Assembly (NCBI GenBank): GCA_019314085.1
Contig: JAFCZZ010000066.1
Span: forward strand, 1 to 11,976
DNA: 11,976 nt
From: Deltaproteobacteria bacterium
GTDB lineage: Bacteria; Desulfobacterota; Syntrophia; Syntrophales; UBA2210
Direction of reading: 5' to 3'
This document shows positions 508-11,309 of this stretch, one piece after another. A model generated the notes under the pieces. That model searched no databases, had not been told where the DNA came from, and was given only the letters and a program-made list of their open reading frames with translations. The position numbers and the translations under genes are program-made. Numbering within the stretch: the stretch's first letter is position 1; every line of letters begins with the position of its first letter.

Positions 508-1325
508 TGCGTTTCATACAACCGAGCTTCAAGATCATGCAGTGCCCGGACGGCGAGGAGGTGCTCGCCTTGTTGGAGCGCGCCGCGCGAACTTGCTACA
601 AGAGTGAGAAGAAGATCTATCCGGGCGAGCCCGACTGGGACGCTGAGCAACGAATGGTGCAAGGTAGATGGAAGCGTGAGCCGTCAAGCCATAGGCTCGT
701 GCGCAAGGTGCTTGAGCTTGGCCATCACAGCGTGATCGAACACATGGTGGTGACAGTGCGCTTCATCTGTAACCGCGGCGTCTCGCACGAGCTAGTGCGC
801 CACCGTATCGGATCTTTTTCCCAGGAAAGCTCGCGTTATTGCAACTACAGCAAGGAGCAGCACGGTAGTGGGCTAAACATCATCGAGCCGAGCTATCGGC
901 CGGCCATGCCGCCATACAAGTTCGACCCCGAGAGCCCACAGACGTCGATGGACCAAGAGGCGCAGTGGACTAAAGGCGAGCATCGTCGAGTGATGTGGGA
1001 GCTGGCGCTCAGGAAGATAGAGGATACCTACCTCAAGTTGATCGAGTTGGGTGAGAAGCCAGAGCTGGCACGAGACATCCTGCCAATTGGACTCAAGACC
1101 GAGGTGGTTACGACGTTCAATCTGCGCGAGTGGCGGCACGTGTTCACACTACGTGCTCTGAACAAGCGAGCCCACCCCCAGATCCGAGAGCTAATGCTCC
1201 CGCTACTGCACTGCCTAGCGGCTCGCATCCCCATCGTATTTGACGACTTGGTGGCGGAGTCCGAAAGGCGACTCGACGCCATGGACGTTCTACCCCTTTG
1301 GCGTTCAACAATGGAGACAGAATGA
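507..1325 (+). CDS. thyX: Flavin-dependent thymidylate synthase ThyX
   Basis: ThyX methylates dUMP to dTMP in the cytoplasm using methylenetetrahydrofolate, FAD and NADPH. The 272-aa protein shows the ThyX signature at residues 98-111 (RHRIGSFSQESSRY, the RHRxxS...SxRY motif), the upstream HHSVIEH segment (73-79), and the C-terminal region with FNLREWRHVFTLR and KRAHPQIRE that forms the nucleotide-binding part of the fold. Length is within the family range (about 220-280). I chose ATG 507 over GTG 504 because AGGAG at 496-500 is 6 bases upstream. The stop overlaps the nuclease start at 1322. ThyX is common in phages and supplies thymidylate for replication; here it shares a coupled transcript with the nuclease. 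Confidence 0.97.
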   Translation: MRFIQPSFKIMQCPDGEEVLALLERAARTCYKSEKKIYPGEPDWDAEQRMVQGRWKREPSSHRLVRKVLELGHHSVIEHMVVTVRFICNRGVSHELVRHRIGSFSQESSRYCNYSKEQHGSGLNIIEPSYRPAMPPYKFDPESPQTSMDQEAQWTKGEHRRVMWELALRKIEDTYLKLIELGEKPELARDILPIGLKTEVVTTFNLREWRHVFTLRALNKRAHPQIRELMLPLLHCLAARIPIVFDDLVAESERRLDAMDVLPLWRSTMETE

Positions 1326-3172
1326 AAACTCGAGTGTACCAATACGGCCTACTGCGCCCCACAGGAGAGGCCGATCTAGTCTGGGAGCAGCTGCACTCAG
1401 CGCACCGCTACCGCAACCTGCTGACGGAGCTGGAGCGCAAACGGCGCGACAGCTTGCGCTCCATCATGTCGTCCTACGCCGACATTGCAGTGCTCGAGCA
1501 GGCGGCAACCGAAGCCAACGATAAGCGGCAGGAAGCCCTCGGCGCCGTCAAGTACGCGCGAAAGTGCTCACGCTCGCGCTCCGAGTCGCAGGCTGCTCGA
1601 CAGCAGCTGCAGGCTGCACGCAAACTCGTCAAGGTGGCGCGCGAAGCGCTCCGAGAGCGGCGCCGGGCGCTACTAGAAGATGAGAGCGCGCGCCTGCAGT
1701 GCGACGAGGTCAATGCGTGGGCGGGCGCGCAGCGCCGGGCTGCACGAGCCGAGTGTGGCTGCTACTGGGGCACGTACCTGCTTGTTGAGGCCGCCATGGA
1801 CGCAGCTCAAAAAAGCCCGCTTTACGACGGGGCCGAACCCAACGACCCGCGCTTCGTGCGCTGGCGCGCTGAGGGCTCAGTGGGCGTGCAGGTGCAGAGG
1901 GGGATTTCTTGTGGCGACGTTTTCGGCAGCGACACGCGCATTCAGATCGATCCAGTCGATGAGCTGGCCTGGCACTCTGAGACCCGCGGGCAGCGACGCC
2001 GACTGAGTCGCACCGCACTGAGGCTGCGCGTGGGCAGTGGGCCCAAGGGCGAACCCGTCTTCGCGCAGTGGCCCATGGTCATGCACCGGCCGCTGCCGGA
2101 GGCCGGCCAGATCATGCGGGCCACCGTGTCGGTCAAGCGCTACGCTGGACGGGACAAGTGGTCGGTCGAGCTCACCGTGCGATTGCCCGACTCTTGGCAG
2201 CATGGGATCTGCGGCAAGGGCAGGGTCGCCGTCGACATTGGCTGGCGCGCCATCGACGCAGAGTTGCGCGTGGCCTATTGGCGCGGACAGGACGGACGGC
2301 ACGGGGAGCTACGGCTCAACGAGAGGACGCTTGACGGGTTGACGATGCCCTCCGGGCTCAGATCTATCCGCGACCGGGTTTTCGATCTGTTCAAGGGGCT
2401 GTTTGGGCAATGGCTCCGGGAAGCCATGGTCAAGACGGCTCCAGAGATCCCTGAGTGGTTTGCGGAGGCTACCGAAACGCTGTCGCGATGGCGCTCCACT
2501 GAACGGGCAGACCGACTGCTCAAGCAGTGGGCCGAGCAGCGATGGGAAGGGGACGAGGTCGGCTGGGCAGTGCTCTGCGCCTGGCGCACGAGAAACCAGC
2601 ACTTGTGGGACTGGGAAGCCAACCAGCGGCGAGGCTCACTGGCCAACCGACGTGAGCAATACCGCGTCTTCGCCTCCGAGCTGGCTGACCAATACGGCAG
2701 CATCGTGCTCGAAGACTTCAACATGCGGCAGGTGGCCCGGCGCCCCCGCACCGCTGAGGAAGGCGACGACAACCAGCGGGCGCGCAGCAACCGCCAGCTC
2801 GCCTCAGTCAGTGAGCTGCGACTGGCGCTATGCAACTGCTTCAATCGGCGAGGCGGCAGCGAAGTCCGGGTGCCGGCCCCGGGCACCACGATCGTCTGCT
2901 CGCAATGCCTGGAGCTAGATAAGTTCGACGTCGCAGCCGAGCTAGTGCATACCTGCGTGCACTGCGGCGCACGGTGGGACCAGGACGACAACGCCACCGT
3001 CAACATGCTCCGGCTGGCTGCCGAGTCGCCGAGCGGCCCCAAGAAACCCGCCGCCGCGGGCAACGGCAAAAAGAACGGGAAAGAGCAGGGCAAGGAAGAA
3101 ACCAAATGGCAGCGGGTCGCGCGCCTCAGACAAGAGAAGAAACAGCGCCAGCTAGGCGGCGCAAGAGCCTAG
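1322..3172 (+). CDS. Cas12m/TnpB-like RuvC nuclease (type V-U like effector)
   Basis: A 616-aa protein resembling miniature Cas12m (type V-U) effectors, enzymes guided by RNA to DNA. The N-terminus matches the Cas12m pattern: residues 21-60 (EQLHSAHRYRNLLTELE, then SIMSSYADIAVLEQA), followed by a charged coiled coil at 60-125. CGCYWGTYLLVEAAMDAA lies at 145-162. The RuvC domain is split: RuvC-I VAVDIGW with D305, RuvC-II IVLEDFN with E464, RuvC-III WDQDDNATVN with D553, so the acidic triad is present. A zinc ribbon (C526xxC529, C545xxC548) lies between RuvC-II and III. Residues 570-616 are a Lys-rich, probably disordered tail. The start at 1322 has GGAGA at 1313-1317 and overlaps the thyX stop (ATGA). 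It is longer than typical TnpB (about 400 aa), and no TnpA or transposon ends are visible. No CRISPR array or Cas1/2 is in the window. Cleavage versus binding-only activity cannot be told from sequence. Confidence 0.88.
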   Translation: MKTRVYQYGLLRPTGEADLVWEQLHSAHRYRNLLTELERKRRDSLRSIMSSYADIAVLEQAATEANDKRQEALGAVKYARKCSRSRSESQAARQQLQAARKLVKVAREALRERRRALLEDESARLQCDEVNAWAGAQRRAARAECGCYWGTYLLVEAAMDAAQKSPLYDGAEPNDPRFVRWRAEGSVGVQVQRGISCGDVFGSDTRIQIDPVDELAWHSETRGQRRRLSRTALRLRVGSGPKGEPVFAQWPMVMHRPLPEAGQIMRATVSVKRYAGRDKWSVELTVRLPDSWQHGICGKGRVAVDIGWRAIDAELRVAYWRGQDGRHGELRLNERTLDGLTMPSGLRSIRDRVFDLFKGLFGQWLREAMVKTAPEIPEWFAEATETLSRWRSTERADRLLKQWAEQRWEGDEVGWAVLCAWRTRNQHLWDWEANQRRGSLANRREQYRVFASELADQYGSIVLEDFNMRQVARRPRTAEEGDDNQRARSNRQLASVSELRLALCNCFNRRGGSEVRVPAPGTTIVCSQCLELDKFDVAAELVHTCVHCGARWDQDDNATVNMLRLAAESPSGPKKPAAAGNGKKNGKEQGKEETKWQRVARLRQEKKQRQLGGARA

Positions 3173-3198
3173 ACCTTACGGGCTTGACTGAAACGCCA

Positions 3199-3221
3199 GC
3201 TCGGCGACTCAGTGCCGAGAC
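3199..3221 (+). repeat. GCTCGG/GCCGAGAC hairpin repeat, copy a
   Basis: A 23-nt element just after the nuclease stop. CTCGGC (3200-3205) pairs with GCCGAG (3214-3219) around an 8-base loop. The same element recurs at 3454-3476 with 4 mismatches and as a looser 25-nt form at 3500-3524. It lies 26 bases past the nuclease gene, before the small ORF. It could be part of a guide-RNA scaffold, a processing or attenuation element, or a weak terminator; there is no T-tract. Confidence 0.6.
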
Positions 3222-3267
3222 TAACCCGTAGGTCCGGACCTTCACAACCACAGCAAGGAGAGACAGC

Positions 3268-3429
3268 GTGGCCACACCAACCAGCGAAGAGATCGAAGAG
3301 CAACTGAACCTGGCGTACGAACAGATCAACGAGGGCCAGAGTAAATACCCAAGCATGACCTTCGAAGAGGGCGTGCGCGACGCCCTGAGCTGGATGCAAG
3401 GGGATGCTGAGGTGCCACCGATGGAGTAG
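3268..3429 (+). CDS. Small acidic protein between nuclease and structured region
   Basis: A 53-aa ORF starting at GTG 3268 with a strong ribosome site (AAGGAG, 3255-3260, 7 bases upstream) and ending at TAG 3427. The product begins MATPTSEEIEEQLNLAYEQ and contains MTFEEGVRDALSWMQG, then ends PPME. It is strongly acidic, with no Cys and no membrane segment, and looks like a short two-helix protein. I recognise no family with confidence. Its position, 95 bases after the nuclease and immediately before the repeated hairpins, makes an accessory or regulatory role for the nuclease possible, but that is inference. Acidity alone would also fit a DNA-mimic inhibitor or an unrelated phage morons-type gene. 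Confidence 0.65.
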   Translation: MATPTSEEIEEQLNLAYEQINEGQSKYPSMTFEEGVRDALSWMQGDAEVPPME

Positions 3430-3453
3430 GACTAACAGGGACCAGTAACGCTC

Positions 3454-3549
3454 GCTCGGGAGCTCAGCGCCGAGACCTCCGCGGGTCTCCCAAAAGCTTG
3501 CTCGGCAGCAAGAGGAGCCGAGACGGCATGGCGGCTTCCTAGCCGAGAC
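3454..3549 (+). repeat. GCCGAGAC hairpin cluster (copies b, c and a half copy)
   Basis: Copy b (3454-3476) pairs CTCGG 3455-3459 with CCGAG 3470-3474. Copy c (3500-3524) pairs CTCGGC 3501-3506 with GCCGAG 3517-3522. A half copy GCCGAGAC is at 3542-3549. Alternative pairings compete with these: GAGACC 3472-3477 pairs perfectly with GGTCTC 3484-3489, using bases of the copy b stem, and the CTCGGC of copy c could pair with the half copy instead of its own partner. Spacing is irregular (48 and 25 nt between GCCGAGAC motifs), unlike a CRISPR array. Confidence 0.6.
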
Positions 3550-3556
3550 CGCAACG

Positions 3557-3650
3557 ACATCATCACGGCAGCTGGCGGCCAATGCGCCAGACAACGACGA
3601 GAGGCTCTAAGGCTATCCCGGGAGCCGCTTTCCGGGCCAAAGTGAAAGTA
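3557..3650 (+). ncRNA. Putative structured RNA element, copy 1
   Basis: First unit of a tandem duplication (offset 108-109). Its first 26 bases (3557-3582) are identical to 3665-3690. Hairpin A pairs CTGGCG 3572-3577 with CGCCAG 3585-3590. A variable ~14-nt stretch follows (to 3606). CTAAGGCTA (3607-3615) is shared with copy 2. Hairpin B pairs CCCGG 3617-3621 with CCGGG 3632-3636, and the unit ends with GAAAGT (3644-3649). Loops and core differ between copies while the stems stay paired, the pattern expected of a selected RNA fold. Transcription and function are not shown by sequence. A role as guide scaffold for the upstream nuclease is inference. It does not fold as a tRNA. Confidence 0.5.
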
Positions 3651-3664
3651 ACGGGGACACCCCA

Positions 3665-3759
3665 ACATCATCACGGCAGCTGGCGGCCAACCACGCCAGA
3701 CGGGGCTATGGGATACTAAGGCTAGCCCGGCGGCCGCTTGCCGGGACAAGCGGAAAGTG
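3665..3759 (+). ncRNA. Putative structured RNA element, copy 2
   Basis: Second unit of the duplication. Hairpin A pairs CTGGCG 3680-3685 with CGCCAG 3694-3699 and has an 8-base loop instead of 7. The variable core is 3702-3715, then CTAAGGCTA (3716-3724). Hairpin B is one pair longer than in copy 1: CCCGGC 3726-3731 with GCCGGG 3740-3745, where both the C and the G of the extra pair changed together relative to copy 1 (a covariation-like change). GAAAGT at 3753-3758 closes the unit. It ends 54 bases before the transglycosylase start, so it could also act in that gene's leader. Confidence 0.5.
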
Positions 3760-3812
3760 AGGCCTGGAGATCGAGACTTGCTATTACCTGGGGCAGATCA
3801 CGGAGGGAAGCT

Positions 3813-4487
3813 ATGGTCACGTTCATCCATGACTCAGATGACTGGACGCCGCGCCGGCAGCATGGCCGGCCGGACAGAGACGCCGAAGTCAACTATCGGT
3901 TCCACCAGTGGCAACTGACCGACGATGGGATCTTCGTTCATGGCGAAGACGGCGTGCGGCGCACCCGAGGGGAGCCAAAAACGCTTCGTCGCATCGTCGA
4001 GGTCTTTCACAAGGAGATCTTCGCAGCTTCCGGTGCAAGTGGGATCGGCGAGCAGTTGCTCGCAGCCGTCATCGCCACCGAAAGCGGAGGCAAGCCCGAC
4101 GCGGAGCGGTTCGAGCAGCACCTGAACGACTACTCGATCGGGCTCATGCAGACGCTGACGGCCACGGCCAAGCAGGTCATGCGCCTGGACGGGGACTTGC
4201 CTCGCCTCTCTGCCAAGTCGGTCCCAAGCGGCGGTGGGCTCGACACCTGGCGCGGGTTTCTGCGTGAGCCCGTAAACTCCATCGGACTTGGCGCGGGCTA
4301 CCTCCGCCACCAAAATCGCACGCTCGAGCTGCGCAGCGATCCCATCCTCTTGTACTGCTCCTACAACGCAGGCAGCGTCCGACAGAGCAGCAAAAATGCC
4401 TGGGGCATCGTCAGCTACGGAAACGCTCTGGATCACTTCAGCCGCTGGTACGGAGATGCCTGCGAAGTGTACGGGGTATGCGAGTGA
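3813..4487 (+). CDS. Lytic transglycosylase (SLT/GH23-like), soluble
   Basis: A 224-aa peptidoglycan-cleaving enzyme of the lysozyme-like SLT fold, which cuts MurNAc-GlcNAc bonds to form 1,6-anhydroMurNAc. Visible motifs: catalytic Glu90 in LLAAVIATESGGK, YSIGLMQ (108-113) followed by TLTATAKQ, GAGYLRHQNR (160-169), and the substrate-groove motif YCSYNAGSV (181-189). The first 55 residues are a charged extension of unknown role. There is no signal peptide or membrane helix, so it reaches the wall through a holin, through lysis, or as a virion-associated enzyme used during DNA entry. ATG 3813 was chosen for its GGAGGGA site (3802-3808). An extended -10-like TGCTATTAC at 3779-3787 may promote it. 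A second, membrane-anchored transglycosylase lies at 7849. Confidence 0.88.
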   Translation: MVTFIHDSDDWTPRRQHGRPDRDAEVNYRFHQWQLTDDGIFVHGEDGVRRTRGEPKTLRRIVEVFHKEIFAASGASGIGEQLLAAVIATESGGKPDAERFEQHLNDYSIGLMQTLTATAKQVMRLDGDLPRLSAKSVPSGGGLDTWRGFLREPVNSIGLGAGYLRHQNRTLELRSDPILLYCSYNAGSVRQSSKNAWGIVSYGNALDHFSRWYGDACEVYGVCE

Positions 4488-7848: not shown

Positions 7849-8682
7849 ATGGACGCGTCCTGGCGCAAGTTCTCCTGCCCCGGCTCGGTCAAAAGCTGGC
7901 GGTACCTGACCGACGGCCGCATCCAGCTGCAGGACGAGGGAGTCGTCAGCTCCCCCTGGCCTGAGCGAGTCAACGACTGGCGCCAGCTCATCGAAGCATC
8001 GGCACTAGTCAACGAAGTGCCCGCGGCCTGGGTGGCGGCCATCATGGCCAAGGAGACCGGCGGACGCAACGTGTGCCTCGATGCCGATGCCCTGCCGGGC
8101 TACAAGGCCTGCTCAGCTCCCTGTCGCTGCGTCCAGAACGAGGGCGCGGGCCTGATGGCCACCTTGCCGGCCACGGCAAGCAGCATGATGGGCCAGGCCA
8201 TCACCAGTCAGCAGCTGCTTGGCGATCCGGCTCTGGCCATTGAAGCAGGCACCCGCTACCTCAGCTACCAACTGAACCGGTACGGCGGGGACTTCGTCCA
8301 GGCCGCCGTCGCCTACAACGCCGGCAGCGTAAAATGCGGCCGGGGCAGCACCTTCCGGCCAGCCGGCACCTCCTGGCCCAAGGAGCCCTGTCCCGATCTG
8401 GGGTGGGGGGTAGTGTTTGGGTGCGTGTACGCCAACGCAAAGTACGGCGAGCGCTGCGTACCCTCATCCACAGGCGTCAAGAGCTATGTGTGCTCGACCG
8501 ACTATCCGCGCCAGGCCATTCACCTGCAAAACGCCGCCAGAGAGCACTTCGAAGGGCTCAAACCCCTAATGCCGCCACCACCGCTAGTCAAACCGGCTGA
8601 TGCTGGCGCTGTAGCCCCCGCTGCAGCCGCTTTGGCCCTGGGGGTCCTGGTTGGCTACGCCGCCCTGGGGCTAGCGTCATAA
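7849..8682 (+). CDS. Lytic transglycosylase with C-terminal membrane anchor
   Basis: 277 aa, lysozyme-like SLT fold. Catalytic Glu69 lies in WVAAIMAKETGG, followed by GAGLMATLPATASSMMG (99-115), AIEAGTRYLSYQLNRYGGDF (130-149) and AVAYNAGSVKCG (154-164). Cysteines at 76, 88, 92, 94, 163, 181, 192, 203 and 215 suggest disulfides and so an extracytoplasmic or virion location. A proline-rich linker (240-250) leads to an Ala/Leu/Gly membrane helix at about 255-276. There is no N-terminal signal. A membrane-anchored transglycosylase could be a virion protein that opens the wall during DNA entry, or part of lysis. It resembles the soluble enzyme at 3813 in the core motifs only, so they are distant paralogs or separately acquired. 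Confidence 0.88.
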   Translation: MDASWRKFSCPGSVKSWRYLTDGRIQLQDEGVVSSPWPERVNDWRQLIEASALVNEVPAAWVAAIMAKETGGRNVCLDADALPGYKACSAPCRCVQNEGAGLMATLPATASSMMGQAITSQQLLGDPALAIEAGTRYLSYQLNRYGGDFVQAAVAYNAGSVKCGRGSTFRPAGTSWPKEPCPDLGWGVVFGCVYANAKYGERCVPSSTGVKSYVCSTDYPRQAIHLQNAAREHFEGLKPLMPPPPLVKPADAGAVAPAAAALALGVLVGYAALGLAS

Positions 8683-8688
8683 TGAAGC

Positions 8689-8705
8689 GCTCGGGCGCGG
8701 CGAGC
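8689..8705. terminator. Possible hairpin between convergent genes
   Basis: GCTCG (8689-8693) pairs with CGAGC (8701-8705) around a 7-base GC-rich loop in the 26-base gap between the transglycosylase stop (8682) and the end of the minus-strand glycosyltransferase (8709). The position fits a bidirectional terminator, but the stem is short and there is no T-tract on either strand. Confidence 0.25.
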
Positions 8706-9956: not shown

Positions 9957-10682
9957 ATGACGGCACCCCTGATCCTGTTCGTACGCGTCCCAAAAACGGC
10001 CACGAGCCTACTCGACGCTATGCTACAAAACCTGCTGGGGGCCGAGGCAGTGCTCAACGTCGAAGGCCGCAGCCAGAACGCCATCGCGCTCAGTACGCTC
10101 TCGTCGCTGACCGACGGGCACCGCGTCGTGAGCGCCCACATGCCCGTGGGGCTGCACGCCTACCTGGCTCGGGAGACCGAGTACGTTACACTGCTACGCG
10201 ATCCAGTCGACCGGGTGGCCTCGCTATTTCACCACGTACAGGCAGACCACCACCGTACCCACTGGCTGCACCGCCCTGGCATGACGATCGCGCAGTGGGT
10301 GACCGATTGCGCCGGGCCAAATACCCAAAACGCGGCCGTGCGATACTTGAGCGGCATGGACATCAAAAGCGGGGCGAGTATGAAAGACTTCGCTCCCGTC
10401 TGCCGGCGGCACCTGGATCTGGCCAAGCAAAACCTGCTCGATCTCTTTCCCTTGGTCGGCGTGGTCGAGCGCTTCGAAGCGCTGCTCCGCAAGCTCGAGC
10501 AGCGCTACGGCCTCCCCCCCCATCACATGGGGCACGTCAACGGGAGACCAAACGCCGCTCCCTACGGTGAGCGACCCACCGACCGGCAAGCACTACCGCC
10601 CGGCACCGTGGCGGCAATCGACGCCGAAAACCGGCTCGATCTAGAGCTATACGAGTTTGCCAGGGACAACCTTGCGCCATGA
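9957..10682 (+). CDS. Sulfotransferase (Sulfotransfer_2 / HS2ST-like)
   Basis: 241 aa. It transfers sulfate from PAPS to a hydroxyl or amine of an acceptor, probably a glycan given the family. The 5'-phosphosulfate loop is FVRVPKTATSLL (8-19; Lys13, Thr14, Thr16, Ser17). The 3'-phosphate motif is YVTLLRDPVDRVASLFHHV (76-94; Arg81, Ser89). VVSAHMPVGLHAYL (57-70) places His61 where heparan-sulfate 2-O-sulfotransferase-like enzymes keep an active-site His. NTQNAAVRYLSGM corresponds to the family NxQTR-LSG element, and VGVVERFEALL to the closing conserved region. No signal or membrane anchor, so action is cytoplasmic. Its stop overlaps the start of a paralog (ATGA at 10679), and an APS kinase lies beyond. 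Confidence 0.9.
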   Translation: MTAPLILFVRVPKTATSLLDAMLQNLLGAEAVLNVEGRSQNAIALSTLSSLTDGHRVVSAHMPVGLHAYLARETEYVTLLRDPVDRVASLFHHVQADHHRTHWLHRPGMTIAQWVTDCAGPNTQNAAVRYLSGMDIKSGASMKDFAPVCRRHLDLAKQNLLDLFPLVGVVERFEALLRKLEQRYGLPPHHMGHVNGRPNAAPYGERPTDRQALPPGTVAAIDAENRLDLELYEFARDNLAP

Positions 10683-11248
10683 CCGCCGCGCGCCCACTAG
10701 TGCTGTTTGTGCGGATCCAAAAAACCGCCACGACCATGCTTCATTGCGTCGTCGAAAACACCCTTGGTAAGGAGGCGGTGCTCTCGTTCGGTTGCTACGA
10801 CGAGCGCACTGCTGCGCGGGCCATCAACCAAGCAGACCGGCCAGGGCTTTTCATGGCGAGCGCCCACATGCCTTACGGCGCGCACCTCCATATTGAACGC
10901 GACTGCGAATACGTGACGCTGATGCGCGATCCGGTCGACAGGGTCGCATCGCTTTACCACCACGTGCAGATGCCGCACCTGACCGGACACTGGCTGCACT
11001 TGCCTGGAGCCAGTCTCGAGCAGTGGCTCGCCCATCATCGCCAGCGATGCGACGCCAGCATCTGCAACACGGCCACGCGCTACCTCTGCGGCGGACGGGT
11101 CGAGAACGGGCCCGGGCAACGCTTCTCGACTCTTGGGCAGACCGAGCTCAGGGCCGCTGCCCACAACCTGGCGGCGGGGAGTCGCGCCATACGGGCAGCG
11201 GCCCACCGACCGAGAGAGCTTGCCCCAGGTCCTGGTCGACGCGATTGA
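10679..11248 (+). CDS. Second sulfotransferase, frameshifted near the C-terminus
   Basis: 189 aa, a paralog of the preceding enzyme. The PAPS-binding loop FVRIQKTATTML (10-21) has Gln in place of the usual Pro before Lys. ASAHMPYGAHLHI and YVTLMRDPVDRVASLYHHV retain the catalytic His and the Arg/Ser of the 3'-phosphate site, and ATRYLCGG matches the acceptor-side element. Homology stops at about AAAHNL (near 11170). The remainder is an Arg/Ala-rich out-of-frame tail ending at TGA 11246-11248. The region equivalent to the sibling's LFPLVGVVERFEALL through its linker is deleted. The protein may still fold around PAPS but lacks the last helices, so activity is doubtful. Start coupled to the upstream gene (ATGA). 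Confidence 0.8.
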   Translation: MTAARPLVLFVRIQKTATTMLHCVVENTLGKEAVLSFGCYDERTAARAINQADRPGLFMASAHMPYGAHLHIERDCEYVTLMRDPVDRVASLYHHVQMPHLTGHWLHLPGASLEQWLAHHRQRCDASICNTATRYLCGGRVENGPGQRFSTLGQTELRAAAHNLAAGSRAIRAAAHRPRELAPGPGRRD

Positions 11249-11309
11249 CCGAGACAACGAGCTAGATCTAGATCTCTATCGGCTCGCCCGCGAGCAGCTG
11301 GCCTCCTGA
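11169..11309 (+). pseudogene. Out-of-frame remnant of the second sulfotransferase C-terminus
   Basis: Reading from 11169 in the +1 frame gives WRRGVAPYGQRPTDRESLP and then AIDRDNELDLDLYRLAREQL, ending at TGA 11307-11309. This matches the last ~45 residues of the sibling enzyme (AAPYGERPTDRQALPPG; AIDAENRLDLELYEFARDNL) almost position by position. It is therefore the original C-terminus, separated from the rest of the gene by loss of roughly 38 codons and a frame change at about 11168-11172. Its end overlaps the convergent APS kinase by 34 bases. Confidence 0.8.

Follow-up and report, generated by a model that had tools for sequence, protein, structure and literature searches.

A cas12m Gene in Probable Phage DNA

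The stretch of DNA analyzed here (the window; 11,976 nucleotides, positions 1 to 11,976 of contig JAFCZZ010000066.1, assembly GCA_019314085.1, Deltaproteobacteria bacterium) carries a cas12m gene and, on the same strand, a series of crRNA repeats, the first of which overlaps the last codons and the stop codon of the gene (Table 1). The protein encoded at 1322–3172 is Cas12m, subtype V-M: it matches the PADLOC Cas12u1 model (1.4e-110), PDB entry 23vw, named "CRISPR-associated DNA-binding protein Cas12m" (residues 7–566, 5.9e-84), and Cas12m2 in the PDB (9.4e-35), and the best structural matches of its AlphaFold2 model (mean pLDDT 82.9, pTM 0.65) are four Cas12m structures with TM-scores (query length) of 0.58–0.65. 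The window thereby contains the effector expected of CRISPR-Cas subtype V-M. Its reading frame is intact with the D-E-D residues present, and D305, E464, and D553/D555 are common to 20/20 aligned sequences, the window protein counted. Residues Arg237, Arg241, Arg245, His269, and Arg270 hold the crRNA in Cas12m2, according to the available text of PMC10442227, and align with R222, R226, R230, H255, and R256 of the window protein (hand-counted numbering).

TnpB was rejected as the identity of the protein, the NCBIfam TnpB model giving 27 bits against a cut-off of 100 and the Cas12m structures lying far ahead of TnpB. With TnpB and its omega RNA the locus shares the RuvC/TNB core and an RNA overlapping the 3′ end of the gene; a long REC insertion, best matches to Cas12m, and several scaffolds in tandem place it outside the TnpB/IS200-IS605 group. 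TIGR-Tas systems are defined by a Tas protein with a Nop-type RNA-binding domain, and membership was rejected because Pfam finds only a Cas12f1-like TNB domain in the window protein. Among the three closest protein relatives of the window Cas12m (P0002–P0004, 67–88% identity), P0002 and P0003 share its C-terminal QLGxARA, preceded by a linker that varies; since QLGxARA is kept while the linker varies, the RNA of repeat 1 may be conserved through the protein.

Around the locus are encoded ThyX, two transglycosylase (SLT) proteins, a collagen-like protein, a dual-specificity phosphatase, two sulfotransferase-like proteins, and an APS kinase. Relatives of the Cas12m are found on 18 IMG/VR loci and on Virus Rctr197k. 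From the neighbor genes and these viral relatives we infer that the window is probably phage DNA, although no virion hallmark gene was recognized among the 18 window proteins searched with Pfam or the nine searched with PHROGs. Close DNA relatives of the window were found neither in viral contigs nor in phage records. The two sulfotransferase-like genes adjoin each other at 9957–11309, and the end of the second lies in another frame (11133–11309), which by eye looks like a frame change.

Table 1. Features of the cas12m locus, with guide starts and support for each repeat
Feature	Positions	Strand	Guide from	Details
cas12m	1322..3172	+		616 aa; RuvC D305-E464-D553/D555
crRNA repeat 1	3139..3174	+	3175	Best model match, 26.0 bits; 6/6 pseudoknot pairs
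crRNA repeat 2	3186..3221	+	3222	21.1 bits; 6/6 pairs; side stem only 1 bp by scan rule
53-aa reading frame between repeats 2 and 3	3268..3429	+		PHROG phrog_6680 (unknown function), 2.2e-5
crRNA repeat 3	3441..3476	+	3477	15.9 bits; 5/6 pairs
crRNA repeat 4	3488..3524	+	3525	16.9 bits; 6/6 pairs
Possible remnant of a further repeat (GGCTTCCTAGCCGAGAC)	3526..3549	+		Partial model match, 3.3 bits, positions 13-36; weak
crRNA repeat A1 (first hairpin, unit 1)	3557..3592	+	3593	Strict motif, G and AC in place; 6/6 pairs; 9.3 bits, below background
crRNA repeat B1 (second hairpin, unit 1)	3603..3638	+	3639	6/6 pairs, one G-T; duplicate of B2
crRNA repeat A2 (37 nt)	3665..3701	+	3702	Strict motif, G and AC in place; 6/6 pairs; 8.5 bits
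crRNA repeat B2	3712..3747	+	3748	18.0 bits; 6/6 pairs

Repeat Architecture in Cas12m Relatives

The crRNA scaffold of Cas12m2, as described in the available text of PMC10442227, is 36 nt long, with nucleotides −36 to −30 disordered and a stem that stacks on a pseudoknot formed between −22 to −17 and −8 to −3; G(−23) makes a noncanonical pair with A(−2), C(−1) is read by the protein, and the guide lies directly 3′ of the scaffold and forms a heteroduplex of 17 bp. Loci of relatives were scanned for the corresponding order of elements (stem, G, 6 nt, loop, 6-nt complement, AC). At least three repeats of this architecture lie near the gene in 21 of the 27 fetched Cas12m loci (L001–L027; one of the analyses behind this count did not include L015), and the relatives have ordinary arrays with one 36-nt pseudoknot repeat per guide, an AC end, and the guide directly after it. 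L010 has one repeat, at the contig end, L018 an array of a different repeat, and L027 two isolated matches, one of them 36 nt behind the matched gene piece; no repeat of the Cas12m architecture was seen in L023. A single repeat instead of an array stands behind cas12m in a Polyangiaceae MAG (L020:2253-2288) and in a Manganitrophus plasmid (L025:7741-7779).

Alignment A2, which comprises 22 repeats taken from 20 of the loci, shows covariation in both helices (90.9% paired vs. 65.3% when shuffled). This is partly built in, because the scan by which 18 of the rows were selected requires the helix; the other four rows (L004, L014, L016, and L020) came from a repeat search or from reading. L013 and L015, of the near-duplicate pairs L012/L013 and L006/L015, were left out of this alignment, as was the solo repeat of L025 on account of its longer loop.

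Eight Drifted Repeats Keep the Pseudoknot Scaffold

A covariance model of 22 repeats from 20 relatives' loci, containing no window sequence, was applied to the window in full, with filters disabled. The five best of its 43 matches are at 3139-3174 (26.0 bits), 3187-3221 (21.1), 3713-3747 (18.0), 3488-3524 (16.9), and 3442-3476 (15.9), all on the + strand and all 3′ of cas12m. The best control score was 12.4 bits, from 13 phage loci (167,626 bases; 12 retrieved by a ThyX query and one by a guide) for which the default filters of the program were kept. Five of the eight window repeats thus lie above background, and A1, A2, and B1 taken singly do not; these three rest on duplication and spacing, and A1 and A2 also on the strict motif. 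The earlier note had proposed a covariance model built from two copies within the window; in the stricter form used here the model recovers the locus as a whole, with A1, A2, and B1 the exceptions. B1 ends in CC instead of AC, has T in place of the G, and was not found by the model. The sixth-best window match, at 8099-8133 inside a transglycosylase gene, ends in TC and at 14.7 bits exceeds the control best; it is probably due to chance.

The + strand of 3130–3770 (641 nt) contains six occurrences of a strict motif, G-[6 nt]-loop-[6-nt complement]-AC, and the other strand none. In 2000 dinucleotide shuffles the mean count of the motif was 0.09 and its maximum 2, so that none reached six, and any 641-nt stretch of the 13 control phage loci contained at most two. 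Folding energy was rejected as evidence, three of the four neighboring pairs of repeats being ordinary (z of −3.31 for the first pair, then −1.17, −1.21, and −0.61, the last two being twin units 1 and 2 described below); pseudoknots are outside the scope of the program used. A search of the window against Rfam, with E allowed up to 1, was without matches. Most of the guide region of repeat 1 is complementary to that of repeat 2 (3172-3182 vs. 3225-3234), and in the predicted fold of this first pair the two are joined.

Eight drifted crRNA repeats lie on one strand with cas12m, each keeping the pseudoknot scaffold of stem, G, 6-nt arm, loop, complement, and AC. All eight differ from one another, A1 and A2 in the loop only, and the mean pairwise identity of the aligned repeat parts, loop excluded, is 58%. 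Six different pseudoknot helices occur among the eight repeats, with 47 of 48 pairs standard, and the side stem has at least 3 bp in seven of the eight. These pairs were counted in a hand register, and no second model was built, because MAFFT misplaced repeat A or the loop gaps. Repeats with the Cas12m pseudoknot scaffold ending in AC, as subtype V-M has them, are thus found at the locus, A1, A2, and B1 being the weaker cases; an array of near-identical repeats with regular spacers is not.

The Twin Elements at 3557–3759

The earlier note had described, from the sequence of 3557–3759, two tandem structured units of ~95 nt with a variable core. The two units are there at an offset of 108–109 nt, with a perfect 26-nt start (3557-3582 = 3665-3690, offset 108), CTAAGGCTA at 3607 and 3716, a ~14-nt variable core (3593-3606 in unit 1 and 3702-3715 in unit 2), and GAAAGT at 3644 and 3753, after which the sequences diverge. 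The paired C-G said to be gained by hairpin B in copy 2 is also real, the G-T of copy 1 being replaced by C-G in copy 2 at the sixth pair. A 43-nt stretch of 81% identity (3607-3649 vs. 3716-3758) has an offset of 109.

This frame was too narrow, since related repeats start at 3139 and end at 3747, and the two elements correspond to the final four repeats of the series, in the order A-B-A-B. Unit 1 consists of repeat A1 (3557-3592), the 14-nt variable stretch, repeat B1 (3603-3638), and the guide of B1, and unit 2 of A2 and B2 likewise. The proposal of a guide-RNA locus holds in that an RNA-guided protein adjoins it and a constant scaffold alternates with variable segments; the definition of the unit and the guide positions had to be changed. 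In place of one ~95-nt scaffold per guide, each unit has two complete scaffolds, A and then B. Because the scaffold ends in AC with the guide immediately 3′, in the Cas12m2 crRNA and in the 22 relatives' repeats, the guides of the two units start at 3593, 3639, 3702, and 3748. The variable cores, one of the two sets of guide candidates put forward, are accordingly the guides of A, and the bases after GAAAGT (3650 and 3759), the other set, are discarded: guide B begins 11 nt upstream of the site proposed, and GAAAGT, taken to be the terminal part of the scaffold, lies inside guide B at its positions 6–11. Counted back from the end of A1, the block of identity between the copies starts at exactly 36 nt, and the variable core lies directly 3′ of AC, so that comparison of the copies itself draws the borders expected between Cas12m scaffold and guide. 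Guides B1 and B2 are alike at 8 of their first 11 positions, guides A1 and A2 at only 3 of 14; judged from these sequences, the two B guides may descend from one guide.

Spacing and Guide Length

The distances between successive repeat ends are 47, 255, 48, 68, 46, 63, and 46 nt, giving four tight pairs of repeats with ends 46–48 nt apart, two of which stem from one duplication. A full 36-nt repeat within a tight pair leaves 10–12 nt for the guide. If the first 7 nt, disordered in Cas12m2, are dispensable, ~17 nt are left, the length in the Cas12m2 structure; the distances of 46–48 nt fit a 29-nt ordered scaffold plus a 17-bp heteroduplex. The guides of the array look unusually short. Among 177 spacers in 20 arrays of relatives (distances of at least 100 nt dropped, L015 left out, L012 and L013 both included), 140 are 35–40 nt long, and 12 are at most 24 nt, six of them 9–13 nt. 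One relative has the same 12-nt spacer twice in one array, between full repeats (L007:8343-8354 and 8678-8689), as short as those of the window. Repeat drift is common in relatives, with 10 of 11 repeats distinct in L017, 13 of 20 in L007, and 10 of 14 in L003, and the window is the extreme of this trend.

Scattered Repeats in a Related Phage Contig

The viral contig IMGVR_UViG_3300032770_000005 (L003/G002, pieces L041–L048; 152,857 bases) has 81 model matches at E up to 0.01. Some make up a regular array at cas12m, and many lie outside it in several further clusters, with both strands represented; the motif scan shows the same clusters. With four motif matches added, the short distances between neighbors are 45, 45, 47, 48, 48, 49, 50, 52, and 54 nt; single distances of 30 and 38 nt also occur, too short to hold a 29-nt scaffold together with a 17-nt guide. 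Agreement with the consensus forms over the first seven bases averages 3.3/7 for repeats at ≤56 nt from the one before (n = 14) and 5.9/7 for those at ≥68 nt (n = 40). The weaker 5′ match is as expected where guides are allowed to extend into the start of the following repeat, and is not proof that they do, because spacers shortened by deletion would show the same pattern. One tight pair is present twice (91660/91705 and 106285/106240); its two copies share the start of the first guide and differ in the second guide. Isolated model matches far from the array are present in the records of other relatives, for example G007, G011, G013, G014, and G018.

Searches for Targets and a Promoter

Matching the variable segments to phage, plasmid, and host sequences had been suggested in the earlier note; no target match was obtained in the window, phage records, or viral contigs. 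Within the window the best match of the guides, apart from themselves, is 13/17, and BLAST of the 3′ flanks of repeats 2, 4, B1, and B2 (four of the eight) in phage records gave only E ≥1 among the matches listed. Guide B2 has a 17-nt match in phage NCTB with CAC directly before it. Exact 17- to 18-mers of guides B2, 2, and A1 (three of the eight) in viral contigs gave zero, zero, and one match, the A1 match being preceded by CGC. Neither the B2 nor the A1 match is preceded by the T- or C-rich motif of studied Cas12m, which may not be the PAM of this protein, and both are read as chance. When 258 guide candidates (256 from the motif scan over all loci, duplicates included, and two window guides taken by hand) were compared with all fetched loci, 26 filtered matches elsewhere were obtained, against nine for reversed guides; at least one of the 26 is a piece-border artifact, and six are repeats of one match. 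For none of the window guides searched in the window, phage records, or viral contigs was a convincing target found. No sigma-70-like promoter was found in 3050–3900. In one relative, the spacers L002:8158-8177 and 8308-8327 match a site of their own contig (L002:5111-5145) at 20/20 bases, on opposite strands; the site lies inside a 190-aa reading frame upstream of cas12m, with no T- or C-rich motif directly before it.

A Probable Phage-Borne Subtype V-M System and Its Alternatives

Studied Cas12m proteins use a single crRNA and no tracrRNA, their precursor is cut within the repeat by self-processing, and DNA binding, which needs a T- or C-rich PAM, silences the target (PMC11013384, available text). 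In the same text no tested Cas12m variant cut double-stranded DNA, four of the eight chosen variants carrying the D-E-D triad; cutting by the D-E-D clades is left open in the available text of PMC10442227. On the protein family, the scaffold architecture, the kinship to relatives' repeats, and the spacing observed here we base the reading that we hold to be probable: a CRISPR system of subtype V-M carried by a probable phage, in which cas12m is accompanied on the same strand by eight crRNA repeats, drifted in sequence and conserved in fold, that act as guide RNAs. A transcript would run through the array and be cut 5′ of each scaffold by Cas12m. The bases 3′ of each AC would serve as the guide, of ~17 nt in the tight pairs, where it would extend over the dispensable first bases of the following repeat. 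The complex of Cas12m and crRNA would then bind matching DNA next to a PAM and block transcription or replication of the target, most plausibly in competing phages or plasmids.

That the repeats are instead relics of a once regular CRISPR array drifting to loss, few or none of them working, we judge unlikely. All eight repeats do differ and their spacing is irregular, B1 lacks the G, the A, and one Watson-Crick pair, repeat 3 has one broken pair, and degenerate repeats also occur at the far end of the array of Virus Rctr197k. However, decay would not keep 47/48 standard pairs over six helix sequences, the cas12m frame is intact with its D-E-D residues, and tight pairs recur in another phage. 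It is far less probable that each ~95-nt unit works as one guide RNA in which hairpin A is an added structural domain and the only guide lies after hairpin B or GAAAGT. A and B do accompany each other in the two copies, both copies retain GAAAGT, and repeat 1 overlaps the gene end as omega RNAs of TnpB do; yet A and B each contain a whole Cas12m scaffold, relatives have one 36-nt repeat per guide, and pairs 1-2 and 3-4 are equally spaced without the sequence of A or GAAAGT. Least credible of all is an RNA anti-CRISPR, in which Racr-like decoys would load the host's own Cas12m with useless RNA: repeat mimics are known in phages for other types (PMC10651486, available text) and solo repeats occur in relatives L020 and L025, but a cognate cas12m lies in the same locus and the sequence after the repeats varies between copies, as guides do.

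Beyond the subtype V-M system that we favor, it is possible, if doubtful, that in one group of Cas12m-bearing phages the array has turned from an adaptive archive into individually evolving crRNA genes. On this view compensatory change would maintain a separate sequence in every scaffold, the scaffolds would be packed in overlapping pairs with the ~17-nt guide of the first extending into the 5′ end of the second, and in one relative ~80 of them would lie in scattered clusters over the contig. The phage would then carry a hard-wired, multitarget silencing program. The dozens of scattered guides in that relative prompt the question of which targets the phage would be silencing. Should the tight pairs be functional, they would provide a natural compact Cas12m guide unit of ~46 nt (29-nt scaffold plus 17-nt guide).

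Comparison with Known Systems

Subtype V-M is already known; according to the available text of PMC11656645, it shows strong enrichment in plasmids and some prophages also encode it. With this subtype (V-U1; Cas12m2, GoCas12m, and MsCas12m) the locus shares Cas12m over its full length, a 36-nt pseudoknot repeat with an AC end, a 3′ guide, and an array beside the gene; it differs in that its repeats are mutually different rather than near-identical, and that four pairs have 46–48 nt between ends rather than ~72. A diverged, compact array appears to be new against the open-access literature searched, where no account of phage Cas12m crRNAs that are scattered or diverged from one another was found, the available text of PMC12607003 and PMC12669027 included. 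The locus shows the extent to which CRISPR repeats can drift with the fold kept. Such loci are probably missed by array finders that seek near-identical repeats, and a structure model was needed here to group the repeats.

CRISPR-associated transposons possess delocalized crRNAs, which are special-purpose, diverged, and located outside the regular array. The term is used in the available text of PMC11656645. Unlike these transposons, the window contains no transposition protein besides Cas12m itself among the 18 proteins scanned. IMGVR_UViG_3300032770_000005 resembles the window in its diverged repeats, its preserved pairing, and tight pairs of 45–54 nt, and differs in having several clusters over 153 kb besides the regular array at cas12m. 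The array of Virus Rctr197k, annotated in its record (KX853510), lies directly behind the gene for a 40.5% identical protein and has the same repeat architecture; in contrast to the window, it consists mostly of regular 36-nt repeats with ~36-nt spacers, and only its far end is degenerate. The Virus Rctr197k record also contains a second annotated transposase-like protein (L001:993-2888), behind which lies a separate annotated CRISPR that has a different repeat.
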